A stretch of DNA of 38,872 bases from a virus: the IMG/VR virus record IMGVR_UViG_3300042451_001259, positions 1 to 38,872 of that record; one strand, 5' to 3'. The notes under the pieces were generated by a model. That model was given only the letters and a program-made list of their open reading frames with translations. It did not search any database and was not told the origin of the DNA. Below are positions 2,054-31,309 of this stretch, one piece after another. Made by a program: the position numbers and the translations under genes. Each line of letters starts with the position of its first letter. Position 1 is the first letter of the stretch.

Positions 2054-2072
2054 TAAAAGTTCTTTAAAATAT

Positions 2073-2469
2073 GGGGATGTTTGGTATTGATTTCAGGTAT
2101 CAGGGGTAAATGGCACGTAGTCAGAATTCATCTATGACTTAAATCCACGGTGAAGCAATTTAAGCGGCAACGTTTATAACAACATGGAAATTGCAGGTTT
2201 ACTTGCAACTTCTAACGTAGCGGTAGCCTAAGGCGAAACTACAATCGGGTCGACTGGCATATAACCTAGGAACAGAAGCCTTCAAGGTGTAACACCACCC
2301 GAAGAGTGTTGGAGCAAACCTGACGGCTCTTGAAAATCCGGTTAGGAACGGTATTGTAAGTTTTCCGTAATTAACTTACTATTTGTTAATTGAGAACCGA
2401 TTAAATAAACGTGTAGTCATTTATTGTTGAACAGGAAAGACACGGGTTCGACTCCCGTCATCTCCACCA
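2073..2469 (+). ncRNA. ssrA: tmRNA (transfer-messenger RNA)
   Basis: The 5' end GGGGATG (2073-2079) pairs with CATCTCC (2459-2465), followed by ACCA with the CCA encoded. A T-arm (ACGGG-TTCGACT-CCCGT) lies just before it. The 397-base spacing and these tRNA-like ends are those of a one-piece tmRNA, which with SmpB rescues stalled ribosomes and adds a degradation tag. The best tag frame closes at TAA 2229-2231 and ends ...ATSNVAVA; it is open from 2154, and I cannot fix the resume codon. The C-terminus differs from the usual bacterial LAA. Flanked by its own promoter and terminator. Confidence 0.92.
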
Positions 2470-6328: not shown

Positions 6329-6586
6329 TTATTTTAATGGATTAGCCTTACCTCTTTTTAAATTAGCACCAACAATATCAGCCCACTTTGTAACCCCAAT
6401 TTGATTGGCGGGACCTCTTTCTATACCAGTTTCCCATTTACCAACCTCAGGGTATCCTTGACCGCCAGCTTGGGTGCCTGACGTACCTGGCGACGGTTCA
6501 CTAGCAACATCCCCCTGTTCTTCAAGTTCTTGATTTTCAGTTGACACTATCAATTTTAATTGTTTTTCGTTAATTACCATTCTCAT
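6329..6586 (-). CDS. Small tagged protein with Gly/Pro-rich linker
   Basis: 85 aa. The tag MRMVINEKQLKLIVSTENQE belongs to the 'E-x-QLK-x-I' class and ends at L21-E22-E23/Q24. After a low-complexity linker (SEPSPGTSGTQAGGQ) comes a compact C-terminal segment rich in Trp, Gly and Lys (YPEVGKWETGIERGPANQIG) ending RGKANPLK. No catalytic motif is visible. After cleavage only about 62 residues would remain, comparable in size to T4 internal-protein peptides. TATTTATA lies 12 bases upstream. Confidence 0.6.
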   Translation of the reverse strand: MRMVINEKQLKLIVSTENQELEEQGDVASEPSPGTSGTQAGGQGYPEVGKWETGIERGPANQIGVTKWADIVGANLKRGKANPLK

Positions 6587-8772: not shown

Positions 8773-8788
8773 GGAGTTTTTATTTTTT
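8762..8788 (+). terminator. Intrinsic terminator overlapping a stop codon
   Basis: CTCCC (8762-8766) and GGGAG (8772-8776) around AAATA, followed by TTTTTATTTTTT. The stop codon of the 47-aa gene lies in the loop and the first arm base. It also separates this unit from the convergent glycosylation operon. Confidence 0.85.
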
Positions 8789-9325
8789 AAAGACCCAACA
8801 ATTCTCAGTTATTTCGTAATTACCGTTACCTAAGGAATCATTTACCGCTAAAACTATTGGCGGGTGGTGAAAATCATGTCCTGATAAAATACCTCCAATT
8901 TTAACTTTAGGTAACCAGCATCTAATATCATCAATAACATCTTCATAATCATGTCCCGCATCTATAAAGACAAAATCTAAACTCTCGTTTTCATAAAGTT
9001 TTGAGGCTTCATTTGATGACATCCTAATAGGATTAATAACCGTAATTACTGGAGATATATTTTTTATAAAATCATCATAAAGAGAAGATGTAATTATTAA
9101 TTCGTGATCGGTATGTTCAATTGAACCCTCCCAAGTATCCACGCAATCAAATTTAATATTATATTTTGAGTTTATGATTTCAACACCCATAAATGATGTA
9201 CTCCTACCTCTCCATGAACCGACTTCAACAAAATGTGAATTATCACCAAATAAATAAACCATATCTCTATAAAGATTAGGATATGTGAACCAATTCTCCC
9301 CGATATTTTGATAAAAATGTTCCAT
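8780..9325 (-). CDS. Class I SAM-dependent methyltransferase (Methyltransf_24-like)
   Basis: 181 aa, last gene of the ten-gene glycosylation operon. Motif I is FVEVGSWRGRST (about 32-43), motif II is FDCVDTWEGS, and the motif IV region is DFVFIDAGHDYEDVIDDI (about 117-134) followed by GGILSGHDFHH. This is the pattern of small sugar or O-methyltransferases found in surface-glycan clusters. The first base of its start codon is shared with the last base of the previous gene's stop. It probably methylates a sugar of the glycan built by the neighbouring enzymes. Confidence 0.82.
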   Translation of the reverse strand: MEHFYQNIGENWFTYPNLYRDMVYLFGDNSHFVEVGSWRGRSTSFMGVEIINSKYNIKFDCVDTWEGSIEHTDHELIITSSLYDDFIKNISPVITVINPIRMSSNEASKLYENESLDFVFIDAGHDYEDVIDDIRCWLPKVKIGGILSGHDFHHPPIVLAVNDSLGNGNYEITENCWVFKK

Positions 9326-11013
9326 TAATTTTCTCTTCTTTGGTCACCAGGGTAAAAATCGAATCTGTTGTGTCTTATTGGTGACAATAATAAAACCGCT
9401 GCGTTTATTTGATCCTCCATTTGTTTTTGGAAAACATGACTCATCCAAGTTTGTTCAAAAGGATGTGCCCATATCGTATCTAAAAATATTTTCTGATTAC
9501 CTTCTTTAGATACCCAAATTGGCCAATTACAATAATGTACTTGTCCTTCGATATATGTGATATCATCACTAATCCTTATATTTTTAAATTGTGTTTTTGG
9601 TGCATTTGGATCATGTCCCGAAACAGGCAATCTTCTTTTGTTTGGAAAAAATTTGTTTCTTACATCTTGTGATACATTGTACCATGCCCATTGAACTGAG
9701 TTATTTCCATAAAATTCACTAAATGAAAGTTTTAAGAAATCGTAATTATTTTCGTGTATAATTTTTAATGTTTTTTCATATAAGTTATCCTTATATCTTA
9801 AAAATCCAGCTGAACATGTATCTTTCGTATTTTGATGTAAAAACATATCATCTTCGAAAAATATGTAATAATCGGAATCACTTTCACCAAAATGTTCTGC
9901 AATAAATTGTCTACCTCCACAAATACCAATGTTATCCTTTTTTATTTCTTCAAAACCATATGTTTCACAAAGTTTAGAATATTCAGAATCGGTAGTCCTA
10001 TCCGTTGAGTTATTCAAAAGGAATTTTTGTGTCTTCGATAAAAAATTAGGTTCAACTTCTTCAAAAGATTTAATTAATGTTTCAAATTGCTTAGGTGAAT
10101 TATATGTCAATACATAAAGGTTTGTCTTTATGTTAATCATTGGTTTTTGACCGTTAGATTTAAGAGGTTTGGTTTTTTTTATATTTTTTAATTCCTCAAA
10201 AAATGGCCAACAAAGCCCATTACCCTCTAATTCAAATCTATGTATCATATCTGGATGAGTATGACATAATATTGTAAATAAACATTCATCCGCACCCATA
10301 TAACCTGCATTAATAGTACTGTGTAAAACACTATAATACAAATTATTCATTTGATTTACTTTTGATTTTAACCCACCCAAAAATCCACCTCTTGCAACGT
10401 ACCTAACAAAATCAGTACCACAATACTCTGCCATTTTCTTTCTTTCAAATCCGTGTATTTCTTCATTACCTTCATATGGATAACTTAAATGTATAAACTT
10501 ATCATCGTTAACGTTACAATAATAATCTAAATTGTCTAAAACATTGTCATTTAAAAAATAACCTTTATTAACGGTATTAGTTAAACCCCCGTCAATCCAG
10601 AAGAAATAATCGGTATTAAACGTGTCAAAAATGGAACTATCATTTAACATGAACATTTTACACATCATCATTGGGTTGTAAAACTCCAACGCAGCTTGTG
10701 GAGATTCCGATAACCATCCGGCGAAATTATACCAACTTGGGTTTGTTCTTATTTCTTGTAATTTATCAAAAAATGGAAACCAAGTTTTAAAATCCTCAAC
10801 TTCTTTTATGTGTATCTTTGTATTTTCGGGTTTACGTATTTCTCTAACTTCTTTCTCTAATTCAGATGGAATCCATATAACCATATTTACATCTGATTCG
10901 AGCATCTCAAAAAACTTTGATTTATAATAAGAAAAATCTCTCTTTGCCCATCCACCTAAATCACCTCTACCTAAATCCCATAAACCAGTAACGATTGTTA
11001 CATTATTGTTCAT
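9325..11013 (-). CDS. Two-domain glycosyltransferase: HtrL/YibB-like + GT2-like
   Basis: 562 aa. Residues 1-270 resemble the HtrL/YibB (WlaTC) family: start TIVTGLWDLGRGDL, a YNPMMMCKMFML segment and FFWIDGGL, where the DGG acts as a DxD-type site. Residues about 297-562 form a second GT-A domain: LYVLTYNSPKQFETLIKSF, LNNSTDRT, GICGGRQFIAEHF and YIFFEDDMFLH with an EDD metal site. The order of two active sites suggests two successive sugar transfers by one polypeptide. It overlaps its upstream neighbour by 11 bases. Acceptor unknown. Confidence 0.78.
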   Translation of the reverse strand: MNNNVTIVTGLWDLGRGDLGGWAKRDFSYYKSKFFEMLESDVNMVIWIPSELEKEVREIRKPENTKIHIKEVEDFKTWFPFFDKLQEIRTNPSWYNFAGWLSESPQAALEFYNPMMMCKMFMLNDSSIFDTFNTDYFFWIDGGLTNTVNKGYFLNDNVLDNLDYYCNVNDDKFIHLSYPYEGNEEIHGFERKKMAEYCGTDFVRYVARGGFLGGLKSKVNQMNNLYYSVLHSTINAGYMGADECLFTILCHTHPDMIHRFELEGNGLCWPFFEELKNIKKTKPLKSNGQKPMINIKTNLYVLTYNSPKQFETLIKSFEEVEPNFLSKTQKFLLNNSTDRTTDSEYSKLCETYGFEEIKKDNIGICGGRQFIAEHFGESDSDYYIFFEDDMFLHQNTKDTCSAGFLRYKDNLYEKTLKIIHENNYDFLKLSFSEFYGNNSVQWAWYNVSQDVRNKFFPNKRRLPVSGHDPNAPKTQFKNIRISDDITYIEGQVHYCNWPIWVSKEGNQKIFLDTIWAHPFEQTWMSHVFQKQMEDQINAAVLLLSPIRHNRFDFYPGDQRREN

Positions 11014-11641
11014 TTTCTTTTATTTTACACACCCAAACAACTGAATCAAAATTTTCTTTATTGTATGGTTTTAAATTATTTTTTTCACATGAATCTTTAA
11101 TATCTGAATCAGATATCTCATGCCAATTCCATATTTTTTTATTTATATCACGTTCAAAATTTTCACTATTCTCACAATAATCATGAGCCATAATATAGTC
11201 TCCATTTTTTATTAATTCAGATAATAATCTAAACTCACCTATTTTATAACCACCATCACAAAGTACTAAAGTGATTCCATCTTGTTTTATAAAATCTTTA
11301 ACTTCTTGTTTAACATCAGAATAAGAATTAAGAAATACATCCTCAACCCTAACATCAATACCATTATTTATTAATTCTGAATACCATTCTTTTCTGTAGA
11401 TATCATAAGTTAAAATAGGACAATCTAATCCTAAATCTTTTACTGTGATGTTTAAAAATTGGGTAAATCCACCTAACGCAGTTCCAATTTCTAAAATTCT
11501 ACTTGGTTTAATTTCTTCTAAAAAATCTCTAAAGATTTGATATACATTGTGTGATTGTTGTGCGGTGTGTCCAAGATAAGCGGATAGACTATCACTTTCG
11601 TCTAAATTATTAAATCTTGTTATATTTTTACTTATGTCCAT
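11003..11641 (-). CDS. Class I SAM-dependent methyltransferase (CmcI-like)
   Basis: 212 aa from the ATG at 11641, one base after the upstream stop; an ATG at 11677 would add 12 residues and a 35-base overlap. Motif I is RILEIGTALGGFTQFL. The segment LVLCDGGYKIGEFRLLSELI and DYIMAHDYCE match the CmcI/rhamnosyl O-methyltransferase-type fold. It probably modifies a sugar. It overlaps the next gene by 11 bases. Confidence 0.75.
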   Translation of the reverse strand: MDISKNITRFNNLDESDSLSAYLGHTAQQSHNVYQIFRDFLEEIKPSRILEIGTALGGFTQFLNITVKDLGLDCPILTYDIYRKEWYSELINNGIDVRVEDVFLNSYSDVKQEVKDFIKQDGITLVLCDGGYKIGEFRLLSELIKNGDYIMAHDYCENSENFERDINKKIWNWHEISDSDIKDSCEKNNLKPYNKENFDSVVWVCKIKENEQ

Positions 11642-11642
11642 A

Positions 11643-12380
11643 TTAAAATCTTGTGTGTAGGTTTCCACTTTTATCATTAAATTGAAAACAGTTATTTAGT
11701 GTTCCTCTAAAAAGATTAAAATCGAATGTCATCTCCGCATCTGCGGAAGCCATCCCAATTTCCAACCCTTCGGCAAATGTCCATACATTTAACTCAATAG
11801 ATTTCCAGTACAACTCTTCCCATTTTTCTGAAAATATACTCATTTTATTTGAATTTTTAAATACTAAAAATTGTTCATTACATACGTGATAATCGTCATA
11901 TTTCGACGTTTCCATTAAACCATACGGTTCAATTTTATGTCTCCAAAAATTATCATGGTGATGTTGTTTACCGTGTCTAATAAAGTAAGGTCTTTCAAAC
12001 ACATAATCAATATTATTGGAAATCATCTGATCAAATAAATTTTTGAATTTATCAGGATGATACCCATCAATAATTCTAAAATCAGAATCAATATAAATGA
12101 TAAAATCAATATCCTCTTTGATTGAATGTTTGATTGGTAGATATTTTAAATTAAAATTAAACCCCAACGGCCATTCGTTGATTACATAGTTATCACCGAT
12201 TACCACGTACTCAATATGGTCATTTTCTTTAATTAAATCAGAAAGTAACTCAAATGTGTCTTTGTCTGTAACAGCTAAACTTTTGGAGTTATCTTTTTTT
12301 CTTTTTTCATTACATAAGTTAATAAAATTCCTTAAATAACTTTCACCTACCGCTAACGAGCAGAACATTACATTTTCCAT
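11643..12380 (-). CDS. Glycosyltransferase, GT-A fold (GT8-like)
   Basis: 245 aa. After an N-terminal Rossmann-like half there is a clear metal-binding DxD in FIIYIDSDFRIIDG (about 93-106), and later LMETSKYDDYHVCNEQFLVF and AEGLEIGMASADAEMTFDFN, as expected for acceptor-side residues in a single-domain inverting or retaining GT-A enzyme. No membrane segment. It shares one base with the start of the gene upstream (12380). The sugar cannot be predicted. Confidence 0.65.
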   Translation of the reverse strand: MENVMFCSLAVGESYLRNFINLCNEKRKKDNSKSLAVTDKDTFELLSDLIKENDHIEYVVIGDNYVINEWPLGFNFNLKYLPIKHSIKEDIDFIIYIDSDFRIIDGYHPDKFKNLFDQMISNNIDYVFERPYFIRHGKQHHHDNFWRHKIEPYGLMETSKYDDYHVCNEQFLVFKNSNKMSIFSEKWEELYWKSIELNVWTFAEGLEIGMASADAEMTFDFNLFRGTLNNCFQFNDKSGNLHTRF

Positions 12381-13051
12381 TAATAACCAATTTCTTTTAA
12401 ATATTTTATTGCAACTGGCGATTCAGGTTCATCGTTTTCATTTAATTGAATACCAATAAAAAACTCTTTATCATCTCTTGGAATGTAATTTTCATTACCA
12501 AAAATACATTTAAAGGTATCTTCTTCACCGTGATTGGTTACAAATTTTGATAACATGTCTTGGTCATCTCCGTATCCGGTACCTCCATTAATCATGTAAT
12601 TTTCAAAATATAGTTTAAACTCATCCCCAATATTTTTCATACCAACTAAACCTCCCGGCACCAAAGAATGCCACGGATGGTCCCTAATAATAAAAATAGA
12701 CTTATCACTCTCTTCCCATTTTCTAATGTATTCCGATTCTCTTAATGTCATTCTGGAATCTAAATCCCTTGAAATAGACGGTACATTATTAAAAAAAGTA
12801 AAGAATCTCCAAAACATTGGGAAAAATGTGGATTCTCTACCGGACATTGTCACTCCGTCCATAACATTGACAATTGCACCTTCCGATTTTAATTTACTCA
12901 TCAGTTCCATATTTGTCATGTGACTGTGTGCGAAAAAATGTACCTCCCAATCAGGTAAGTATTTTTTACATAAGTCGAAATTTTTTATGGCACCTAAATT
13001 ATATTTGTCATGTCCACCGTATAGTGAGAAAGATATTTTTCCTTTAGTCAT
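12380..13051 (-). CDS. Glycosyltransferase-like protein (DLDSR-type GT-A)
   Basis: 223 aa. It has KISFSLYGGHDKYNLGAI at the start, and the metal site VPSISRDLDSRMTLRESEYI (about 91-110), where D-x-D is followed by SR as in several capsule glycosyltransferases. A later GYGDDQDMLSKF (about 159-170) is typical for the acceptor side. It overlaps the next gene (13044) by 8 bases. Likely cytoplasmic enzyme of the same glycan pathway. Confidence 0.68.
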   Translation of the reverse strand: MTKGKISFSLYGGHDKYNLGAIKNFDLCKKYLPDWEVHFFAHSHMTNMELMSKLKSEGAIVNVMDGVTMSGRESTFFPMFWRFFTFFNNVPSISRDLDSRMTLRESEYIRKWEESDKSIFIIRDHPWHSLVPGGLVGMKNIGDEFKLYFENYMINGGTGYGDDQDMLSKFVTNHGEEDTFKCIFGNENYIPRDDKEFFIGIQLNENDEPESPVAIKYLKEIGY

Positions 13052-14036
13052 TTATTATTTTTTCAAAAAAAGAAAGTAAGTATTCTTCATTAAAATAAAT
13101 AGGTAATTCATTATTAACAAAAAATGGTTCAGAATACATTTCTTTGAGTTTATTTTTATCACTATACACTTCATCCATAAAATCAGCGGTATCTGCAAAT
13201 GACTCAAAACTATGTCCATTTACAAATGCGTTAGGGTTAAATCCTTCCTTTAAAATGTTTGAGTTACCGTAAAAAACTGGTATCGAATCTCCAGCATATG
13301 CATGTATAATCTTCTCTTGTGTTAAATCTATTGTGTTTGTATATTGAAACGCAATGTTAAAATGAGAGTCTTCGAAGAATTTAATCTTATCTCTGTAAAC
13401 TAATCCATCGATTTTACCCATATAATCAGGGTTTGAATAGTTGTGGTATTTGTGGTAATTCAAAGCCTCATCTGCACCCACAGTTCCTCTCCAAGGACCT
13501 GAAGATTTAATGTGATGTTTTTTAATTATTTCATCATAAAGTAATCCCCTATCATTATTGACACTTGATTGTACAACTGAACAAAAATGTTTTTTCTTAG
13601 AAATTATTGAGTCGACATCTCTCTTTGATGTTAACCATCCGAACGGACTATCAAAAAGTCCTCCTTCATTGTGTAACACAAATGCGTCTAACACATATGT
13701 TGGGAATCTTAAATAATTTGGATGATTTATATGTTCATATCCTAAACAATACTCATTATTTGATAATCTTCCGTGATAACCTGGACTCGCCTCCCCACTT
13801 ATGAAAACTCTTTTTACACTTTCATCATATTCATTTAAACCTTTTATTGTTTGTTTAGTGTAATAGTCATATTCTCCTTGATTGTAATGTAAGTTACTGT
13901 AAAATACAACATCGGGGTTTTCTGATGTGATAACCACATCATATTTTAAAGATAAAACTCCCACGAAATAATTCATCCATGAGAAATTACCCACACCAGG
14001 GAAACCACTTCTTGATACTTTTATTGTTTGTTTCAT
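13044..14036 (-). CDS. Family GT10-like fucosyltransferase
   Basis: 330 aa. The C-terminal half carries the GT10 (alpha-1,3/4-fucosyltransferase) signature: KFFEDSHFNIAFQYTNTIDL, then QEKIIHAYAGDSIPVFYGN (about 222-262), which binds GDP-fucose; WRGTVGADEAL is upstream. The N-terminal half is the acceptor-binding Rossmann domain. Length is close to bacterial GT10 enzymes. No membrane anchor. ATGA overlap with the gene upstream (14033). Donor GDP-fucose is the family's usual substrate; this phage encodes no GDP-fucose synthesis in the window, so it would use a host pool. Confidence 0.82.
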   Translation of the reverse strand: MKQTIKVSRSGFPGVGNFSWMNYFVGVLSLKYDVVITSENPDVVFYSNLHYNQGEYDYYTKQTIKGLNEYDESVKRVFISGEASPGYHGRLSNNEYCLGYEHINHPNYLRFPTYVLDAFVLHNEGGLFDSPFGWLTSKRDVDSIISKKKHFCSVVQSSVNNDRGLLYDEIIKKHHIKSSGPWRGTVGADEALNYHKYHNYSNPDYMGKIDGLVYRDKIKFFEDSHFNIAFQYTNTIDLTQEKIIHAYAGDSIPVFYGNSNILKEGFNPNAFVNGHSFESFADTADFMDEVYSDKNKLKEMYSEPFFVNNELPIYFNEEYLLSFFEKIIND

Positions 14037-14788
14037 TTTAATAACATTTTATAATTTTTAGGTAGATAATCTGATAATTCGATTCTTTTCATAATAGAAT
14101 TCTCTTTACCCCTATCAAATATATCTTTATTGTTTTCAACCACGTCTTTAATCCTCTCAACATCGGTATAATAGTCATCGTTATATTCTTGGTGTGCAAA
14201 ATTCTTTATTTTATTTGATATAAAATATTCGTCACCGAAAAAACTAAAATGCCATCCCCTATATGAGTTATTAAAGGTATTCCAATTACTTCTTAAATTT
14301 TGAGGGGAGTTGTTTTTTAAAACTTTATAAGAACATATTATACCACAGGGGTTATGTTCTTCTATTTTATTGTTTAAGTTATAATAATAATTATCAAACG
14401 CACTTCTCATACCTTTCTTTACTAATTCAATATCGAGTGTTAAGATATTATCAATATCAGGTATTTCATCAGTATCATGTATTAAGATTATGTCATCATC
14501 ACTCAAATCCAATTTATCCAAACCTTTCATTATTGAGTTTCTCTGAAAGTATTCATTGTTCCACGCACTTAAATTTTCAGGAGGCGTTACAACGATATGG
14601 ATAATTTTATCATTAAATTCAGAGAACATATCCTTATTTGCATCATAATATAATTCCTTATCATTACCCGCAAATGTTTTAGTCATTTCGACAAGAACAA
14701 AATAATCGACTTGTTCGTTTAATTCTGTTAGTCTAAATTTGAGCATTTCTAACTCATTATAAAAAATAAACGTATCAATTATTTTCAT
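14033..14788 (-). CDS. Family GT17-like N-acetylglucosaminyltransferase
   Basis: 251 aa. The N-terminus KIIDTFIFYNELEMLKFRL and VDYFVLVEMTKTF, followed by DDIILIHDTDEIPDIDNI (about 97-114), match the GT17 family (eukaryotic beta-1,4-mannosyl-glycoprotein GlcNAc transferase and bacterial/viral relatives). H-D-T-D-E-I-P contains the metal-binding DxD. The GWHFSFFGDEYFI block is also typical. Overlaps the next gene upstream by 14 bases. Donor UDP-GlcNAc is the usual family substrate; the acceptor here is unknown. Confidence 0.82.
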   Translation of the reverse strand: MKIIDTFIFYNELEMLKFRLTELNEQVDYFVLVEMTKTFAGNDKELYYDANKDMFSEFNDKIIHIVVTPPENLSAWNNEYFQRNSIMKGLDKLDLSDDDIILIHDTDEIPDIDNILTLDIELVKKGMRSAFDNYYYNLNNKIEEHNPCGIICSYKVLKNNSPQNLRSNWNTFNNSYRGWHFSFFGDEYFISNKIKNFAHQEYNDDYYTDVERIKDVVENNKDIFDRGKENSIMKRIELSDYLPKNYKMLLK

Positions 14789-15518
14789 TGTTAAAAATTA
14801 AATTTTTGTCACTTAAAAAGTACGATTCCGTTGGATATGGATTAACATCTTCTTTTAGTTTTTTACCGCACGTATATCTCTCAGCGGCAGGATTACTATA
14901 TTTTGTTTTTATATATTCATAATTATATGTAGAATATTTTCCCCACGTGGTTTTAACATCATCATATATTAAATCTGACGATTCGTTATAAATTGATGTG
15001 GTATTAACTGTTTTTATTTTATCTCCAGTCAATTCTTTAAATCTCATCCACATATCAGTGTCTTCCCAACCAAAACCTAAAAGACGTTCATCAAAATAAC
15101 CTATTTCATTTAGGAAAATTTTATTTACAAAAAAATGTGAAAAACTATCATTAAATAACACCATTTTCACATCCTCCTCTAAAATTTCATCACATTGATT
15201 AAAAAAATCGTTGTTTAAAATTTTAATATCATCATTTAATAATAACACATTATCTAAATTTGAATTCATTGTTCCGATATTCCATAGTTTAGATAATGAA
15301 CGTATTTCCGTAAAAAATACGGGATATATTGAATCAAATTTAACACAAAAACTTAAAATATCTTTTCTATATTTCTCATTTAATATTCCGTCCTTTTCTC
15401 CATTAATTGTTAGTATTATTGGATTTGTAGTAACCTCTCTAATTTGAGTTATTAAATTTGTAACTAAATCAAATCTTTTAGAGAATGTTGTTATAACAAT
15501 TGTATATTTTTTATTCAT
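14775..15518 (-). CDS. Family GT2-like glycosyltransferase
   Basis: 247 aa. The N-terminal nucleotide-sugar fold starts YTIVITTFSKRFDLV; the metal site is VLLLNDDIKILN (about 91-102); IGYFDERLLGFGWEDTDMW (about 139-157) is the classical GT2 acceptor/catalytic block with the ED base. It ends without membrane segments. It shares one base with the start of its upstream neighbour. Part of the operon building the same glycan. Confidence 0.82.
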   Translation of the reverse strand: MNKKYTIVITTFSKRFDLVTNLITQIREVTTNPIILTINGEKDGILNEKYRKDILSFCVKFDSIYPVFFTEIRSLSKLWNIGTMNSNLDNVLLLNDDIKILNNDFFNQCDEILEEDVKMVLFNDSFSHFFVNKIFLNEIGYFDERLLGFGWEDTDMWMRFKELTGDKIKTVNTTSIYNESSDLIYDDVKTTWGKYSTYNYEYIKTKYSNPAAERYTCGKKLKEDVNPYPTESYFLSDKNLIFNNENN

Positions 15519-16342
15519 TATCGTATTTTTTCGATGTAATCTTCGTATGATTTACCATTTATATTGTGTATTAAACCTAATGTTTGATAATTCGACCAAA
15601 GAGTAGTTCTTGTATATAATTTATCACAATAAGCAAAAATCGCCATGTTTAATAAATCTCTTTTCATTCTATCATAGTTGTTATTTACCTCATAATTAAA
15701 TGTAACCATATCAACTCCCTCAACCGTAATATCATTTATCTCCTTGACATGACATGATAAAAAAACCTTTAAGTCTTTATCATTATTATGGATGTCCAAT
15801 ATTAGTTGTTTAATCTGATTTATTTCAGTTTCAGATGTTAAATGTGAATCATCATATCTTAAATGAATCATTATAAACTTACCAAACGGTATTGTTATAT
15901 TTTCAATTTCATTTAAAAATTTATGATTAAATAACAATCTTTTTCTATTATTAATACTTGGATAAGGACCTCCCTTTGCAATGTTTTCAACAGAATATCC
16001 ATACAAATCTAAAGATTGAATTTCCAACAAATTTTCATTTTCTTTGTGTACATATATGTTATACGCATATGCAACTGTTGGTAATTTTATAAAATCTTCG
16101 TCAATGGAAACATTTAATTTTAAGTTCTCATTAAAAAGTGAGAAATCAAGACATTCTTCTAATAAAGTATTTTGTGATTTTAAATCATGATAAAATGAAA
16201 CTTTAGAATTAATCCTTACATGAACATCGTAACCTAATGATATTAATTTATCATATCCCTCTTTTAATGAGATGAGACAAGCATAAAAATCACCTAACCC
16301 TGTTTCAAACCAAGTTTCTAATATAATTTTTCCTTTCATCAT
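15518..16342 (-). CDS. Possible GT-B glycosyltransferase-like protein
   Basis: 274 aa from the ATG at 16342, which overlaps the preceding stop as ATGATGA; the frame is open nine codons further. It starts KGKIILETWFETGLGDFYAC, with a GLGD loop near the N-terminus, and the middle has KFIMIHLRYDDSHL and LKVFLSCHVKEI, recalling nucleotide-sugar-binding GT-B proteins of the fucosyltransferase or heptosyltransferase type. I could not place it in a family. The operon position makes a glycosylation role likely. Confidence 0.55.
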   Translation of the reverse strand: MMKGKIILETWFETGLGDFYACLISLKEGYDKLISLGYDVHVRINSKVSFYHDLKSQNTLLEECLDFSLFNENLKLNVSIDEDFIKLPTVAYAYNIYVHKENENLLEIQSLDLYGYSVENIAKGGPYPSINNRKRLLFNHKFLNEIENITIPFGKFIMIHLRYDDSHLTSETEINQIKQLILDIHNNDKDLKVFLSCHVKEINDITVEGVDMVTFNYEVNNNYDRMKRDLLNMAIFAYCDKLYTRTTLWSNYQTLGLIHNINGKSYEDYIEKIR

Positions 16343-17589
16343 AAATCTCCAATTATTCTTTCTGACCATCCTTTAGATTCACTATGTGGCCAAACAACCC
16401 AATATTTTGGTTTTGTTTCAACCGTGAATTCCCTCCAAATTTTACAATATCCATCGGGGTCATTTTTTAATCTTCGTATTTCGTCCTTGTCAGCATCTTT
16501 TCTAAAAAGAGTTTCATCTTTTTCATCATGAAATGCAACAACCCAAAAATCATAGTCATTTTCAGGTACCCTATCGAAGGTAACATCTATACAATGTTTA
16601 AAAATTGACAAGAATGAACTATTAAATTCATCACCATATAAGGGTGGATTAGGTGCTAAATTATTATCTACCGTATATTTTTGAACGGCACGTTTTTTAA
16701 ATGAAACACCAGCGTATCTTTCATAATCCTCTAAAGTTCTTTCTTTACCAAAATCATAAACTCCAAAATCAATATCTTTTACCTCACCATCCATCTCAAA
16801 TAATTTTCTATTTCTTTTATGACAACTTACATTTTTGGTAACCCACTGTTTGTCATCATCCCATTGTTTTTTTCTACCTTTACGAGTATACTCGTGCCAC
16901 ACAACGGTTTTGTGAGGATGAAATAAATCATAACCCCACGTATATGCTCTAACCGCAATTGAAATTTCTTCTCCATGAAAATAATATTCAGGGTCGTGTG
17001 GAACTTCTTTAACAAAAGAACCTAAAGTAAAACAAAAATGTGCCGAATAAAATCTAGCAGGTATAGGTTCAGTTCTTTCTTTGTAATCGTCAATTGTTGC
17101 TGGTAAGAAAAACACAGCACCTTCTGGAATGAATCTATCGAAATTCATTTTCCAAGGTTGTTGTATTCTACCGGCGGGATCGTTATCGGGATCAAAAGAT
17201 GAAACGTAACCAGTTAACAATGGTTTCTTATGTCCCTTCTTTTGTAGTTGTTTAATCATTTTTATGCAATCATCATCCCAATTCTCGGCAAATCTATGGT
17301 GAGAGTCTAATTGTAAAGTATACTCTTCACCATCGTATTGTTGTTGTAAAGTATTTCTAGCCCAACAAGCACCTTTTGAATCTTTATAGTTGATGTCTAA
17401 AATTTTGAATCTTTCGTCACCATTAAATTCATCTAAATTATCCCATTCGTCATCGACCGAACGTTGCCATGCAATTGAAAAAACTAAATTTTCCGGTTTT
17501 TTTGCGTTTTTTATACAGTCTTTTATTGTTGGTACTAATTGCGGATCTCGATAAGATGCAATTTGAATGAAAATTTTGTTGTTACCCAT
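16339..17589 (-). CDS. Family GT60-like (Skp1-type) N-acetylglucosaminyltransferase
   Basis: 416 aa, first gene of the operon. FIQIASYRDPQLVPTIKDC at the N-terminus, the metal-binding D95-S-H in YTLQLDSHHRF, and YYFHGEEISIAVRAYTWGYD followed by PHKTVVWHEYTR are hallmarks of the GlcNAc-transferase family that modifies hydroxyproline of Skp1 in Dictyostelium, with relatives in bacteria and giant viruses. The C-terminal 130 residues are an extra domain ending in a Trp-rich segment. UDP-GlcNAc is the expected donor. Neither promoter class seen elsewhere is clear upstream. Confidence 0.85.
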   Translation of the reverse strand: MGNNKIFIQIASYRDPQLVPTIKDCIKNAKKPENLVFSIAWQRSVDDEWDNLDEFNGDERFKILDINYKDSKGACWARNTLQQQYDGEEYTLQLDSHHRFAENWDDDCIKMIKQLQKKGHKKPLLTGYVSSFDPDNDPAGRIQQPWKMNFDRFIPEGAVFFLPATIDDYKERTEPIPARFYSAHFCFTLGSFVKEVPHDPEYYFHGEEISIAVRAYTWGYDLFHPHKTVVWHEYTRKGRKKQWDDDKQWVTKNVSCHKRNRKLFEMDGEVKDIDFGVYDFGKERTLEDYERYAGVSFKKRAVQKYTVDNNLAPNPPLYGDEFNSSFLSIFKHCIDVTFDRVPENDYDFWVVAFHDEKDETLFRKDADKDEIRRLKNDPDGYCKIWREFTVETKPKYWVVWPHSESKGWSERIIGDL

Positions 17590-21790: not shown

Positions 21791-22180
21791 ATGAAAAAAT
21801 ATATATTCACAGAAGGTCAACTAAAAAAAATTATAGATTCACAAATAAGTGAACAAATGAGTCCAGAAGACCGTGAACAAAAAAGAATGGACGCTAGTTT
21901 TAATGCAGTATACGGTAATCCCCCAATTTCACAACAAATGAAAAAATACCCAAAAGGTAGATTTGCATTTTCATCTGGAATGATTAAAATGTTAGACCAA
22001 GACAAAACTAACAAATTATACGTTGTTAAAGATGGTGACACAATAAGTGGATTAGTTCAAAAATTAGGTGCAAACTCAGATTACAATATATTACACGATA
22101 ACGATTTATTAAAAGGTAATCCTAAAGGGTTACAACCTGGTATGATTATTGCTTATAGTCTAAGACCCTCTGGTAACTAA
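21791..22180 (+). CDS. Tagged LysM-domain protein
   Basis: 129 aa. The tag MKKYIFTEGQLKKIIDSQIS ends I19-S20-E21/Q22. Residues about 77-123 form a LysM fold: YVVKDGDTISGLVQKLG, then LLKGNPKGLQPGMIIAY. LysM binds N-acetylglucosamine-containing glycans such as peptidoglycan. A packaged LysM protein could hold the injection apparatus or a hydrolase at the murein, or be a baseplate hub protein. It overlaps the convergent GIY-YIG gene by 21 bases. Confidence 0.78.
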   Translation: MKKYIFTEGQLKKIIDSQISEQMSPEDREQKRMDASFNAVYGNPPISQQMKKYPKGRFAFSSGMIKMLDQDKTNKLYVVKDGDTISGLVQKLGANSDYNILHDNDLLKGNPKGLQPGMIIAYSLRPSGN

Positions 22181-23218: not shown

Positions 23219-24985
23219 ATGAAGATTAATGATTTAATATTTGATATGGTTTTTGAGGAGATAAAAGCAAATCAAAAAACCTTTTTCAACGAACTAATGG
23301 TTAAATGGAGAGCTGAAATGCCCCAATTAACAGACGATCAAGGAGAAAAAGTTTTTAATAGACACAACAATATTAAAAATCAAATTTCCATTGAAAATTC
23401 CGGTGTTTTAAGATTCTTAAAAAGACATGACGGTAGATTTCCAGACAAACAGAAATATTCATTAAACGATTTAAAACAAATTCAAGTCTTTAAATTTGCG
23501 GATCTTGTTTCATTTTTAGTTGAATTTGGAAAATTTGAAATGGGTGGTGAAGATAAGGAAAACGATGTTGAGGATGAAAAAGCTAGACTTGATGCCATAT
23601 TTGCATCGGACGGCAATCAACCAAATGAGCTTAAAATTGAAACATCGAAACCAATGTGGTTTAGCGATGAAAATTGTGTTATAAATAAAGGTGGTGTAAG
23701 AGTCTATAAAGTATTGAGTGAAACTCACGCAAAAAGAATGGGATATTATTACCAATCTTTACATAGACAACAATACATGAAATTTAGAAGAAACGGTAGA
23801 ATAAATTCACCGTGGTGTGTTACGTGGAGAGGTGATGTAAAAATAACGGATGATGAAGGTAACTATCTATACGGTAACGGTACCAATCAGTATGGATATT
23901 ATAGAAGAAGTGATAAGAAAACATTCTATTTCCTTATTGATGATAACAGAAATTATTTAAGTGATGATGTCAATGAAGCAAGATTTCATATGGCTGCAAT
24001 CCAAATAAACAACTATGGTTCTTATACTGTAAGTTCAATGTTTAATGACGGAGACGAAACCAAAAGTTGGGATTTTATTGTTAGTACTTGGCCTCAATTG
24101 GATGGAGAAAGGGAAAAATTTGAATGGAGAGCATTATCTCAAGATGAATTAGAATCCGCAAAAGTTACGGATATGATTAATGAAACTCCTGGTGATCCAA
24201 ATGAATTCTCAGCACAGACACCACAAAGAATGACAGAGTACATTAGTATCGGAGGTAAAATTAAAGAAGTTGATTCTTGGAATGCAATGACTCCTGAATT
24301 AAAAACAACTTACATTACGATGATGCAATTACACGATGCAACATCAAGAATTTCAAATAGTAAGTTATTAACTGCAATATTAAAAACAAGTCCTCCCGAT
24401 TTTCCATATCGTGAAAAATTAGATAGAAAATTAAAACAAATCGGAAAACCCGGTATTGAATACCTCGTTAATGATTTTATGCAAAAAGATTATATTCTTG
24501 TTAGAAAAGGACAAAAAGACGACAATTATAGAATTTATCAAAGCAAGTCTTCTCATTTATTTGGTATCTATCATATCAGTTCATTTGAATGGGTAATGGA
24601 TGGTACAACTAAAATAGAATATAATGACAGATTCTCTGAAGAAAAAATGATGAGAACTGAAGATGAGCAAGGTAAAAGATATGCCGTTAAATCTTATTCT
24701 GCAGATAATGGAGATGCTTTCTACGTAATAATCGATAACCCAACATTATCTGACGGTGGTGAAGCGTTAGGTTATTTAGTTAGTAAACAAATGTGGGAAG
24801 AAGATTTATCTCATAGGTTAACTGTAATCGAAGGAAAAAGAGTACCTACTATGGTTGGTTACGAAGGTGGGAAATATGGTGATATTCAACACGGGTTGTC
24901 TCCTAAGAAGAAAAAAGAAAAAGTACAACAACCAAATCCTCAGGTACCACAAGAACCTGAACAGGGTGGTCAAGAAGAGATATAA
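23219..24985 (+). CDS. Large tagged protein, unknown function
   Basis: 588 aa. The tag MKINDLIFDMVFEE belongs to the 'MKLxDLIFE' class with V11-F12-E13/E14 as the candidate site. The long body has alternating helical (20-110) and beta-rich parts with many Trp/Tyr (SPWCVTWRGDVKIT, YYRRSDKKTFYFLID, WDFIVSTWPQLDG), a second similar block near residues 430-560 (NYRIYQSKSSHLFGIY, YAVKSYSADNGDAFYVIID), and a Pro/Gln/Glu-rich end. The two beta-rich blocks may be related repeats. No catalytic motif was found. Probably a packaged protein, given tag and TATTTATA boxes. Confidence 0.6.
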   Translation: MKINDLIFDMVFEEIKANQKTFFNELMVKWRAEMPQLTDDQGEKVFNRHNNIKNQISIENSGVLRFLKRHDGRFPDKQKYSLNDLKQIQVFKFADLVSFLVEFGKFEMGGEDKENDVEDEKARLDAIFASDGNQPNELKIETSKPMWFSDENCVINKGGVRVYKVLSETHAKRMGYYYQSLHRQQYMKFRRNGRINSPWCVTWRGDVKITDDEGNYLYGNGTNQYGYYRRSDKKTFYFLIDDNRNYLSDDVNEARFHMAAIQINNYGSYTVSSMFNDGDETKSWDFIVSTWPQLDGEREKFEWRALSQDELESAKVTDMINETPGDPNEFSAQTPQRMTEYISIGGKIKEVDSWNAMTPELKTTYITMMQLHDATSRISNSKLLTAILKTSPPDFPYREKLDRKLKQIGKPGIEYLVNDFMQKDYILVRKGQKDDNYRIYQSKSSHLFGIYHISSFEWVMDGTTKIEYNDRFSEEKMMRTEDEQGKRYAVKSYSADNGDAFYVIIDNPTLSDGGEALGYLVSKQMWEEDLSHRLTVIEGKRVPTMVGYEGGKYGDIQHGLSPKKKKEKVQQPNPQVPQEPEQGGQEEI

Positions 24986-27475: not shown

Positions 27476-27823
27476 TTAATTATGTTTTCCACACCAAGGA
27501 CAAATAGGTAGTGATTTTTTCTTTTTGTATGTTGTTTGGGTATATAATTTTCTACAGGCCTTACATTTTAAGAATTTTGCGTCCTTATTTAAATCGTCAA
27601 TACTTTTAATTTGTTTATCGGTCAATGAACTATAAACATCCTTTCTTTCTCCGTCATCCTCATTCAATTTTTCATTGTCATGTCCACACTTATGACAAGT
27701 ATATGGGTCTTTACCACCCTCAGATTTCTTCCATTCCCATCCACAACCATCACAATGTACGACTCCGTTTTTTTCTGATTCAATAATGTACTTTAATTGT
27801 GATTCGGTTAATACTATTTTCAT
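27476..27823 (-). CDS. Tagged double zinc-ribbon protein
   Basis: 115 aa. The tag MKIVLTESQLKYIIESE has a candidate I13-I14-E15/S site. Then come two zinc ribbons: VHCDGCGWEWKKSEGG with YTCHKCGHDN, and LKCKACRKLYTQ with PICPWCGKHN, four Cys each. A L-N-E/D lies between them. Such ribbons bind nucleic acid or protein. It starts one base after the stop of the zincin gene, in one unit. Confidence 0.72.
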   Translation of the reverse strand: MKIVLTESQLKYIIESEKNGVVHCDGCGWEWKKSEGGKDPYTCHKCGHDNEKLNEDDGERKDVYSSLTDKQIKSIDDLNKDAKFLKCKACRKLYTQTTYKKKKSLPICPWCGKHN

Positions 27824-27824
27824 G

Positions 27825-28433
27825 TTATAATTTTACGATAGCCCAGTTATAAAGAGATTCACTTATTTTTTCATCATCTGTCTCACCACTTTCTTTTATC
27901 CTATTTCTAAGAGTGTTAAGATAGTTAACAAACATCATATCACTATAGTTGTCATATCCCCCCATTTTAGGTATGTATTCTTTGGTTAATAAACCTAATT
28001 TAACAAATTCCCTACACTTTCTCAACCCAAACTGATCCGCAACATTTTCTGTATATTTTAAAAATCTAACCGCCTCATCCATGTCAACCTCCCCAACATA
28101 AAATCTGTGCATCATACTTGAACCATATTTCTTATATTGGTATTGATGAGCCACTTCGTGGAAAATAACAAATAGGGTATTTTCTAATGTATATTGTAAT
28201 ACCTTTTTATTAATAACGACTTTATTGTGTAATGATATACCCGCAGCTGGTAATTTAAAGGTACCAAATTCAATATCTTGACAATTTGATTCTTCTATGA
28301 ATTTCTTAACTAAATCAATGTGAGACTCCAATCTTGGGTAAGCAGTCAATAACTCATCAATAAACGAGTCGATACCATTCGTCTCTTCAAGAATAATAGA
28401 TTTGTATTGATTTTCGGTTAATACTATTTTCAT
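27825..28433 (-). CDS. Tagged zincin-type metallopeptidase
   Basis: 202 aa. The tag MKIVLTENQYKSIILEE offers I14-L15-E16 and L15-E16-E17 as candidate cleavage sites. The zinc site is H92-E93-V-A-H96 in FVIFHEVAHQYQYKKYG, and E129 in YTENVADQFGLRKC is the likely third ligand, as in gluzincins. The N-terminal half is a helical plus small beta fold. A packaged protease could act on host or capsid proteins after injection. TATTTATA lies 12 bases upstream, within AGTATTTATACT, a palindrome. Confidence 0.75.
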   Translation of the reverse strand: MKIVLTENQYKSIILEETNGIDSFIDELLTAYPRLESHIDLVKKFIEESNCQDIEFGTFKLPAAGISLHNKVVINKKVLQYTLENTLFVIFHEVAHQYQYKKYGSSMMHRFYVGEVDMDEAVRFLKYTENVADQFGLRKCREFVKLGLLTKEYIPKMGGYDNYSDMMFVNYLNTLRNRIKESGETDDEKISESLYNWAIVKL

Positions 28434-28536: not shown

Positions 28537-28791
28537 TTATTTAATAAATCTATTGAATTCTTTTTTAATAGATTCGTTTAGACTGTATTGAAATCTTAAA
28601 TCGTCATCTTTTGGGTATTCTGTCTTATCAGTTAATTCCCCTAAAATTAAATTAACAACTTCGGGTGAAAAAGAATCATCGGTTTTTAATGTGTGAATAA
28701 CAAATTCCCTTTCCTTAACGGTTGGGTTATTCAACATATAAGTTAGTAACTTACTAATCCCACCAAATTGCTTCATTAAACTATCTGCCAC
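28537..28791 (-). CDS. Small protein sharing a C-terminal motif with its upstream neighbour
   Basis: 84 aa. The N-terminus is helical (DSLMKQFGGISKLLTYML). The C-terminus SLNESIKKEFNRFIK closely resembles the C-terminus of the next gene upstream (MNESVIKIKSEFNRFL). The L-N-E/S inside it matches the proposed protease site. No other domain is recognised. It shares one base with the upstream stop, so it is co-translated with it. Confidence 0.55.
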   Translation of the reverse strand: MADSLMKQFGGISKLLTYMLNNPTVKEREFVIHTLKTDDSFSPEVVNLILGELTDKTEYPKDDDLRFQYSLNESIKKEFNRFIK

Positions 28792-29156
28792 TATAAAAAT
28801 CTATTAAATTCTGATTTTATTTTGATTACCGACTCGTTCATATTAATTTCTGAAGGTGGGTTTGGCATCATGTTTTCATCATCACTACCCATAGTGTAAT
28901 CCACTGGTTCATTATTACTACATAACTTATTTTTTAATATGTCACAAGCATTTAATAAAGCCTCTTCACTATCGAATTCTGAACCCGCAACCAAATCCTT
29001 ATATTGACTAACAAAACTATCAATCATTCTTTCTGTTTCGCTAGCAACATCCATACCATTTTCAACACCAACTGCACCAGCAGATTGTTCGTTTACTTGT
29101 TTAGACGCAATTATTTTCTTTAATTGTTCTTCTGTGATTTTGATTTTTTTTCCCAT
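28791..29156 (-). CDS. Tagged small acidic protein
   Basis: 121 aa. The tag MGKKIKITEEQLKKIIASKQ continues to V21-N22-E23/Q24. The mature part is acidic and helical (ERMIDSFVSQYKDLVAGSEF, EEALLNACDILKNK), with two Cys, and ends MNESVIKIKSEFNRFL, shared with its downstream neighbour. No enzymatic motif. A TATTTATA box begins 24 bases upstream. Putative packaged protein. Confidence 0.6.
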   Translation of the reverse strand: MGKKIKITEEQLKKIIASKQVNEQSAGAVGVENGMDVASETERMIDSFVSQYKDLVAGSEFDSEEALLNACDILKNKLCSNNEPVDYTMGSDDENMMPNPPSEINMNESVIKIKSEFNRFL

Positions 29157-29295: not shown

Positions 29296-29607
29296 TTATT
29301 TGTGTTTGATTATAAGTTCACCAAGTACCTCTAAACGACCCACCTCTGTTTGAAATTCGGTTTGGTTCATTTCTAAAGATATACTTTTTAATGTTTTAAT
29401 AAATTCTTTTTTAGATTCTTCCATATCAAATTTACCTTCAGATGCTTTCTTATAGTAAGGAAGTTTTACTTTAAAATGATGATAAGTCAACATTGATGGG
29501 CCACCCTTTTCTTTGGCATTATTAGCAATCTTAGTTGCTCCGCCCATTCTTTTTTCAGCAAACTCATCGAATGACTTCGATTCTGTTAATATGTCTGTTA
29601 GTTTCAT
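29296..29607 (-). CDS. Tagged small protein, unknown function
   Basis: 103 aa. The short tag MKLTDILTE/S matches the start of the 'MKLxDIL' class with L7-T8-E9 as the site. The rest contains FDEFAEKRMGGATKIANNAK, a well-ordered HHFKVKLPYYKKA block and a helical end. No domain recognised. It starts 4 bases after the stop of the GIY-YIG/kinase gene, in the same unit. TATTTAAT 4 bases upstream of the start is probably chance. Confidence 0.55.
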   Translation of the reverse strand: MKLTDILTESKSFDEFAEKRMGGATKIANNAKEKGGPSMLTYHHFKVKLPYYKKASEGKFDMEESKKEFIKTLKSISLEMNQTEFQTEVGRLEVLGELIIKHK

Positions 29608-29611
29608 AATA

Positions 29612-31309
29612 TTAAATATCTAAACATTTTAAATTACCGTCCTTATCATACCCGTAGTTACCGACGTGAACGTCTGCGACGGGTTTCAATTCATATACGG
29701 AATGAATAAGATTATAAAATTCAACAAAGATGTTGTAAATGAAATCGTTACCCGTTTCTTTTATTTTCTCACCAATAGATAAAAATTCTTCCTCCATCTC
29801 CTCATCTATTCCTAAACTTGTAAGATATGTTTGTAAAGATTTACCTGACATTACAGAAACAACATTTGCCAATGAATTCCAATGTTGTTTTGCTTTCTCC
29901 GTATTCAATCTTTCAACACCTACATATTTTACTTTAACGGTATCGCCCGGATTATATGTGATTGGTTTAAATTCACCAGTTCTCCAAGAGAAGTTGGTTA
30001 CTTGTTTTTTTAATTTAATATTAACATAACCCGTACCATATACCTTTGGGAATATGTCAGGACGACTTTTAAATAAATCAACCCAACCATTAACGTCTTC
30101 ATCAAATCCAATTTTATAAACCATGTTTGGGTTCTTATTGGATGGATATACATTATGAAATGCACCTTTACCAACGAGTTCTTTTTCTTTCGTTGCAATC
30201 TCATCAACCTGTTTATTGGTTTGATTTAATTCTCTCTCTATAAATAATTTTTTAACGTCGTCAATTAAATTTCTATATTTTAATTTTCCCACTAATACAA
30301 CATCTTTTTTTAACTCGTCATATGTTTTATATTCCAATGCGGATTTTATTAAATCATCAATATTTTTTAGTTTTGTTACTTTAAATTTTCTTTCAAATTT
30401 ATCTAATAAATTAAATGGAGGTAAATCTAACCCTTTAATACGTATTCTATGTTCAACATGTTTATACTTAGCTCTAAAATCTTTTAAAGTTCTAATTCCA
30501 TCAACTTCATAAGCATAATCCACAATTTCTCTTAATTTTTTAACACTAATACCTGTGGGTCCTAAAGCGCCTGTTTTTTGTATATTTAATATTTCCCATC
30601 CCACATTTCTATATTTATTTTCCCAATACTTCTCTAATTCAACCGCCTCAGATGAATCAACATAACCACTTAATTCTTTATACTGATAATGTAATTTTGG
30701 ATTTTTGATTAAAAATTTAGTTACTGAAGTTAATTTTTGTTTTTTTAAGCGATTTACTCCATGTAAATGTTCGTCTTTTCTCTTATCACTATTATTTGTT
30801 AAACCGATATACGACGCGATTGGTTTATTATTTTCATCATAGAATTCAAACACATAAACGAGTCTTTTGGAATAATTGTGAGGTGTTTGCATGTGTGATG
30901 TTATCTTATCATAAAATTCGTAGGTATTAATTTTTTTTCCACTAATAGAATCTATAACAAATGGACCTCTTTTTATTGCAGCCTTCAACGCACCTTCATC
31001 GTTTACTCTAAATTCATTTTTTGTGTTATATTTTTTGGCTATATCTTCTAATTGTTTGTCCGTATATGCTTCCCTAACCATATCTTTGGTAAAATTTAAT
31101 CTAAAATTTTCACCCTGTCTTACAACATATTTATAAACATTTTTATCTTCCCCATTTTTAAAATCATATAGAGGTTTACCATTATATTTTTCTTTTATTT
31201 TGTTAAGGTATTCTAAGGAATATTTCGACACTCCCTTATTATGTGGGATATTACCTTTTGATACTCCTTCATTAATTACAATTTCAAAAATTAAATCAAC
31301 TAATTTCAT
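29612..31309 (-). CDS. Tagged GIY-YIG nuclease fused to a kinase-like domain
   Basis: 565 aa. The tag MKLVDLIFEIVINE/G ends I12-N13-E14. Residues about 100-115 hold an 'EFRVNDEGALKAAIKRG' repeat typical of homing-nuclease DNA-binding parts; a second copy is near 275. Residues about 150-245 are a GIY-YIG fold (LVYVFEFYDENNKPIASYIG, LTNNSDKRKDEHLHG with Arg/His, and a later Glu). Residues about 378-565 look like a protein-kinase fold: GKGAFHNVYP loop, VYKIG Lys, and DVHVGNYGYDKDG with C-terminal CLDI. The protein ends where a DFG-type Asp would stand. TAATG overlap with the 40-aa gene upstream. Confidence 0.75.
   Translation of the reverse strand: MKLVDLIFEIVINEGVSKGNIPHNKGVSKYSLEYLNKIKEKYNGKPLYDFKNGEDKNVYKYVVRQGENFRLNFTKDMVREAYTDKQLEDIAKKYNTKNEFRVNDEGALKAAIKRGPFVIDSISGKKINTYEFYDKITSHMQTPHNYSKRLVYVFEFYDENNKPIASYIGLTNNSDKRKDEHLHGVNRLKKQKLTSVTKFLIKNPKLHYQYKELSGYVDSSEAVELEKYWENKYRNVGWEILNIQKTGALGPTGISVKKLREIVDYAYEVDGIRTLKDFRAKYKHVEHRIRIKGLDLPPFNLLDKFERKFKVTKLKNIDDLIKSALEYKTYDELKKDVVLVGKLKYRNLIDDVKKLFIERELNQTNKQVDEIATKEKELVGKGAFHNVYPSNKNPNMVYKIGFDEDVNGWVDLFKSRPDIFPKVYGTGYVNIKLKKQVTNFSWRTGEFKPITYNPGDTVKVKYVGVERLNTEKAKQHWNSLANVVSVMSGKSLQTYLTSLGIDEEMEEEFLSIGEKIKETGNDFIYNIFVEFYNLIHSVYELKPVADVHVGNYGYDKDGNLKCLDI

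Follow-up and report, generated by a model that had tools for sequence, protein, structure and literature searches.

Why a phage should carry its own tmRNA, and what would become of proteins that received its tag, is the question raised by this locus. The sequence analysed, referred to here as the window, is a virus record of 38,872 bases that may be a fragment. ARAGORN called a single tmRNA in the window, at 2073-2469 on the + strand. The Rfam family RF00023 matched over the full length of its model (1-374) with 82.9 bits (E 7.4e-31), the gathering score being 47. An earlier note on this DNA had proposed a phage-borne tmRNA with tRNA-like ends and an encoded CCA, and both programs bear this out. 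Because the same gene is present in many related phage contigs, it is not a chance resemblance. The locus at 2073-2469 is a tmRNA gene.

The tmRNA gene, its promoter and the likely host

The gene and its flanks contain the following features.

2022-2053, + strand: Bacteroidota-type promoter, TTTG-N20-TACATTTG, from motif counts in relatives
2073-2469, + strand: tmRNA (ssrA) gene, from ARAGORN and Rfam RF00023
2073-2079/2459-2465, + strand: acceptor stem, with a G-U third pair at 2075/2463
2119-2123/2135-2139 and 2127-2132/2149-2154, + strand: pseudoknot 1 (PK1), from an alignment of 30 relatives
2247-2250/2264-2267 and 2256-2258/2278-2280, + strand: second pseudoknot, from the alignment of 30 sequences
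2442-2458, + strand: T-arm
2467-2469, + strand: encoded CCA
2471-2492, + strand: intrinsic terminator, a stem-loop followed by a T-run

A G-U third pair in the acceptor stem has a role in alanine charging. The phage tmRNA would presumably be charged with alanine, use SmpB and tag proteins. The earlier note had named absence of the pseudoknots as grounds for abandoning its reading. In the 30-sequence alignment two pseudoknots are backed by paired changes, PK1 with both-side changes in each of its stems and one more at 2247-2280.

A host-type promoter and a terminator had also been proposed. Both were located, and the promoter could be refined to TTTG-N20-TACATTTG, the Bacteroidota promoter form. 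Its TAnnTTTG element was present in 67/77 distinct upstream regions of relatives versus 642/11,113 genomic 70-mers, and the full motif in 40/77 upstream regions versus 60/11,113 genomic 70-mers. An E. coli-type (sigma-70) promoter was considered and rejected, as no such site was found upstream of the tmRNA on the + strand. A separate element, TTCTTT[AG]AAA, lies immediately ahead of the mature 5' end (window 2059-2072) in 37/82 relatives, versus 27/25,983 genomic 30-mers. It resembles a boxA antitermination element.

The phage host is likely a member of the Bacteroidota. Among the matches listed for the ClpC-type protein of these phages (see below), the best bacterial relatives are mostly Bacteroidales/Bacteroides with 50-55% identity, and Macrococcus and Ruminococcus are close behind. 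A tmRNA scored over the cut-off in 96/99 genomes from the phylum of one Bacteroidales/Bacteroides-type ClpC relative. To define the tags of likely hosts, 58 loci were examined: the 30 best-scoring among the 99 genomes, 20 chosen by hand from the rest, and 8 from four genomes. ARAGORN gave a tag for 52 of them, three of which look misread, and 49/52 tags were 9-10 aa long and ended in [LM]AA. The phage tag described below is therefore not that of the host.

The tag peptide

Two further features lie within the tmRNA.

2166-2231, + strand: tag frame GNVYNNMEIAGLLATSNVAVA with TAA stop (2229-2231), resume codon GGC at 2166-2168
2185-2214, + strand: hairpin in the tag frame, at the helix-5 position, from pairing across 78 distinct sequences

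The earlier note had described an unusual tag that ended in ATSNVAVA instead of LAA. ARAGORN supports the same short form, since in the window and in several relatives it placed the resume codon at 2205. The frame of ATSNVAVA stays open upstream to GGC 2166. This codon begins 12 nt past the last base of PK1 (2154) and has an A at -4. The same distance of 12 nt separates pseudoknot 1 from the resume codon in E. coli, where the frame is set by the base at -4 (A86), as given in the accessible text of PMC2481249. The A at -4 is present in 84/84 distinct relatives. A scan of the same 84 sequences placed the resume codon 11 nt from PK1 in 48, 10 nt in 15, 12 nt in 5, 13 nt in 3 and at another distance in 3, and found no PK1 in the other 10. 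For several relatives ARAGORN itself gives long-form tags, such as GNVYNNMEVAGLLATSKVAA, ANVYNNMEIAGVLATSKVAA and GNTFAKMATLGLTREASVVAA. The codon pattern reported below spans codons 1-14, of which codon 14 alone lies at or after 2205. Because of the PK1 spacing, the A at -4, the full-length tags in relatives and the codon pattern, the resume codon is assigned to GGC 2166 and not to 2205. A tag translated from 2205 is almost certainly wrong.

The tag thus reads GNVYNNMEIAGLLATSNVAVA, 21 aa ending in VAVA, whereas tmRNA tags are usually, though not by definition, short with an end in LAA or the like. The earlier description holds as to frame and unusual end, and is wrong about where the tag starts and how long it is, with 8 aa in place of 21. 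The covariance model, which had been suggested as a check, likewise aligned the mRNA part upstream of 2205, leaving the frame in place and extending the tag. An internal start at the ATG of the tag was rejected, as this residue is Leu in 16 of the 48 peptides of the tag-independent set defined below. ARAGORN can evidently shorten long phage tags, and annotated phage tags may need re-reading.

A degenerate pattern for the tag matched 77 viral stretches which, together with loci already collected, yielded 43 distinct coding sequences and 29 peptides. A second pattern, built on the 3' half of the tmRNA and blind to the tag, matched at least 120 stretches. Loci first brought in by this second scan (L217 onward) form the tag-independent set. 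A tag of 20-22 aa, of one family and in one register, was present in 60/64 tag-independent segments, and one of the four misses (the second hit in L288) is no tmRNA. The whole set, which includes loci retrieved with the tag pattern itself, gave 94/98. For tag selection a loose expression was used, with a required residue class at each of positions 2, 7 and 11 and none at 1, 6 or 12. Among the 48 distinct tag-independent peptides, 47 start with G, position 6 holds K (44) or N (4), position 7 holds M or L, and G11 and L12 are present in all. The ends vary; many are VAA, AVA or similar and several are VTI, VGA or VEA. Of 28 contigs retrieved through a glycosyltransferase, 11 contained a tmRNA, nine with a tag of this family and two (L083 and L092) with other long tags.

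The tag frame is the open one; stops are present in the other two frames in 75 and 77 of the 83 distinct coding sequences of the whole set. Changes were counted at each codon position along a minimum spanning tree. In the tag-independent set, positions 1/2/3 changed 28/10/50 times in the tag frame versus 27/32/24 times in the 42 bases upstream. The corresponding counts for the whole set were 37/14/77 and 50/53/46. The excess of third-position changes in the frame indicates that the tag peptide is under selection.

The hairpin at 2185-2214 lies within this coding frame. Across the aligned sequences 70.4% of its cells were paired versus 56.5% (sd 1.1) in shuffles, a comparison among related sequences in which the shuffle figure is no probability. 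Pairing fell to 39-54% when one side was slid, and 10/13 hairpin pairs had changes on both sides. Helix 5 contains the stop codon in standard tmRNAs; in the phage tmRNA the stop comes after the hairpin. The hairpin's place within the frame and its paired changes would suit an origin of tag length in RNA structure, in which loss of the helix-5 stop extended the frame as far as the following stop and left a peptide without any function. A constraint on the RNA alone would not favour third positions as the 28/10/50 pattern does, and the peptide is constrained ahead of the hairpin too, at positions 1 and 6. We consider an origin in RNA structure very improbable. Tentatively, and with somewhat less than even confidence, the tag RNA may be doubly constrained, by degron coding and by an internal helix, as part of the self-contained pathway considered below.

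Searches for the tag elsewhere gave no matches. The tmRNA was compared with phage records by blastn and the tag peptides, as short queries, by tblastn. The tag pattern, a narrow one that fits the NVYxxME branch only, was run against a species-genome collection. A tag copied from the C-terminus of a phage protein was also considered and rejected; of 7215 reading-frame ends scored, the sole high score was a tmRNA tag itself, and the next-best frame end scored -13 versus 46 for the lowest own tag.

Long tags of other kinds were noted at L083, L092, L268 and L470 (LR756504), for example GIKNRISSLVKAFTGSEELAFAA and frames ending in GADYAVAA, EEEVLAVA and NSFEQSILNELFAPVEMAVAA. Among huge phages, tags of such length may be frequent. 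Mycobacteriophage Bxz1 has a long tag too.

Clp and SmpB genes in related phage contigs

A ~670-aa AAA+ unfoldase of ClpC type is encoded in 12/12 and 21/23 tmRNA-bearing contigs of related jumbo phages (33/35 together). The two without a match, G029 and G032 (181 kb), both contain the tmRNA and may be fragments. In one of the proteins, analysed in full with Pfam, two AAA modules and a UVR motif were recognised, and no Clp_N domain is among the 25 Pfam families shown for it. The frames inspected start a few tens of residues ahead of the first AAA module, and the alignment to ClpC begins near ClpC residue 145. Because the N-terminal Clp_N domain is absent, the protein is labelled ClpC-type; its nearest solved relatives are ClpC. 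The [VIL]GF loop of ClpC has a role in docking to ClpP. This loop is present in 36/36 ClpC-type frames, aligned at the loop of S. aureus ClpC.

ClpP was found in 12/28 contigs, among them all ten of at least 200 kb, although three (G049-G051) look near-identical. It was not seen in the other 16/28, which may be fragments. The phage ClpP scored 200 bits in Pfam versus a cut-off of 20.2, fell below the NCBIfam equivalog cut-offs, and has its catalytic positions aligned. A role for ClpP as head-maturation protease was rejected. A separate T4-type prohead protease (S77) is present in 12/12 contigs, and at L306, the one locus examined, ClpP lies between a sigma-70 factor and a gene that by eye is SbcC-like. 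Sequence comparison with bacterial ClpC-ClpP (PDB 6em9, 5g1q) shows the two AAA modules, the UVR motif, the [VIL]GF loop and the ClpP catalytic positions to be common to both, whereas the phage unfoldase is without the N-terminal domain of bacterial ClpC.

An smpB gene, which the earlier note proposed to look for in the phage, had no match in the 38.9-kb window and was present in 6/26 and 2/14 related contigs (8/40 together). The 32/40 contigs in which SmpB was not seen may be fragments. The phage SmpB scored 179.8 bits versus an equivalog cut-off of 130, and its C-terminal tail aligned to solved SmpB. The smpB and tmRNA genes are within ~50-600 bases of each other in G037, G047 and G052, and in G052 ClpC, tmRNA and SmpB fall inside ~6.4 kb. 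On contigs with both, the ClpC domain match is ~3-30 kb from the tmRNA. This proximity, or the co-occurrence of the genes within one phage lineage, may reflect common descent.

Of tmRNA, ClpC, ClpP and SmpB the window holds the tmRNA alone, ClpC and ClpP being matched there only at E 0.7-0.8. The window's own phage presumably carries ClpC and ClpP outside the sequenced stretch. No tmRNA above the Rfam cut-off was seen in two other huge phages that encode related ClpC, ClpP and SmpB (LR756502 and LR745206), and ARAGORN found no further tmRNA in the stretches of up to 20 kb that were taken from four huge-phage records. Beside one phage ClpC gene (L497, 3940-4305) a small protein was noted that by eye is like a small heat-shock protein.

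Possible fate of tagged proteins

Genomes that combine a phage-specific, selected tag with an unfoldase and a ClpP of the phage make the reason for tmRNA carriage testable. With about even confidence, we propose that the locus is a functional jumbo-phage tmRNA through which trans-translation marks proteins with a private degron, to be read by phage ClpCP. A stalled ribosome in an infected Bacteroidota cell would accept the alanine-charged phage tmRNA together with SmpB, supplied by the phage where it encodes one and otherwise by the host. The ribosome would switch to GGC 2166 and add Ala and the 21-residue tag. A conserved inner motif (K/N-M/L at 6-7, G-L at 11-12), together with an end other than LAA, would make the tag a phage-specific degron. 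Tagged chains would pass to the phage ClpC-type unfoldase, which lacks the N-domain, and ClpP, either instead of or in addition to the host protease that recognises the short host tag. The proposal thus predicts that phage ClpC recognises the tag and that degradation follows. The tag family, its difference from host tags, selection on the peptide and the ClpC, ClpP and SmpB genes of relatives all argue for a degron; tags that end in VAA or AVA, near LAA, argue against one, as do the window and the related contigs in which ClpC, ClpP or SmpB was not seen, and LR756502 and LR745206 with these genes but no tmRNA above the cut-off. The broader proposal, that Bacteroidota jumbo phages possess self-contained trans-translation and proteolysis with a private 20-22 aa degron, a ClpC-type unfoldase delivering to ClpP and in some cases SmpB, is put forward tentatively and falls a little short of an even chance.

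The main rival is an ordinary phage tmRNA that supplies extra rescue capacity and a tag for host proteases, the phage ClpC and ClpP serving something unrelated such as degradation of host proteins. No special tag is necessary for rescue, tmRNAs without such partner genes have been described from phages (accessible portions of PMC4131195 and PMC9004378), and many of the tags have an end such as VAA or AVA. A short C-terminal signal for the host would nevertheless leave the invariant inner G-L, the selection on distant codons and the length of 20-22 aa unexplained, and host tags keep [LM]AA whereas several phage tags end in VTI, VGA or VEA. We regard an ordinary tmRNA as unlikely, though it retains real weight. 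The earlier note had suggested that the tmRNA re-routes stalled peptides, protects phage products or replaces the host tmRNA. Re-routing and replacement gain indirect support because related phages encode the ClpC-type unfoldase, ClpP and in some cases SmpB. In a version without destruction, the tag would send stalled phage proteins to another fate or give a product that host proteases are unable to read. The non-LAA ends agree with this, and the conserved core, which looks amphipathic by eye, might serve as a binding motif. Degradation is the better match to a phage unfoldase and ClpP encoded nearby, and no phage protein among the scored frames has a tag-like end, so we judge a non-destructive tag improbable.

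If the self-contained pathway exists, it would let the phage decide, during takeover, what becomes of each stalled chain, separately from the tag-and-degrade route of the host. The direct question is whether the tag is readable by the phage protease and not by that of the host. Tag and phage protease would form a possible orthogonal degron/protease pair.

Bacteroidota bacterial tmRNAs (tags such as GENNYALAA and DNNYSYRLAA) have in common with the phage tmRNA the tRNA-like domain, PK1, the A at -4, the Rfam family and often the starting Gly. The phage tmRNA differs in its tag of 20-22 rather than 9-10 aa, in the lack of an [LM]AA end and in a stop beyond the helix-5-like hairpin. Bxz1-like mycobacteriophages, Bacillus phage G and Melnitz likewise encode a tmRNA, that of Melnitz being two-piece, unlike the one described here; the accessible portions of PMC4131195 and PMC9004378 do not mention a linked ClpC-type unfoldase for these phages. 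Huge phages with tmRNA and SmpB are already known (PMC7162821, as far as accessible), and the two genes are side by side in some relatives here too. The main text of PMC7162821 contains no word starting with "Clp", whereas here a distinct tag family occurs together with a ClpC-type unfoldase and ClpP. In the accessible parts of the literature searched (including PMC9934374), mostly without subscription papers, there is no account of the tag family or of a link between phage tmRNA and ClpC. Within that literature, then, phage tmRNA and its pairing with SmpB are known, and the tag family and the tmRNA-ClpC link are unreported.

Other genes of the window were noted in passing. Many of its proteins start with a similar short hydrophobic stretch, for example MKIVLTESQLKYIIESE and MKLVDLIFEIVINEG, encoded at the following positions.

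6329-6586, 21791-22180, 23219-24985, 27476-28433, 28791-29156, 29296-31309 and 33010-33963: hydrophobic-start proteins

This start resembles a capsid-targeting sequence of T4-type internal head proteins; an S77 prohead protease is encoded by relatives. A run of minus-strand genes occupies 8780-17589, several of them glycosyltransferase-like by eye, and the 562-aa one among these has relatives in Xanthomonas phage XacN1 and in Stenotrophomonas phages CM1 and RAS14.
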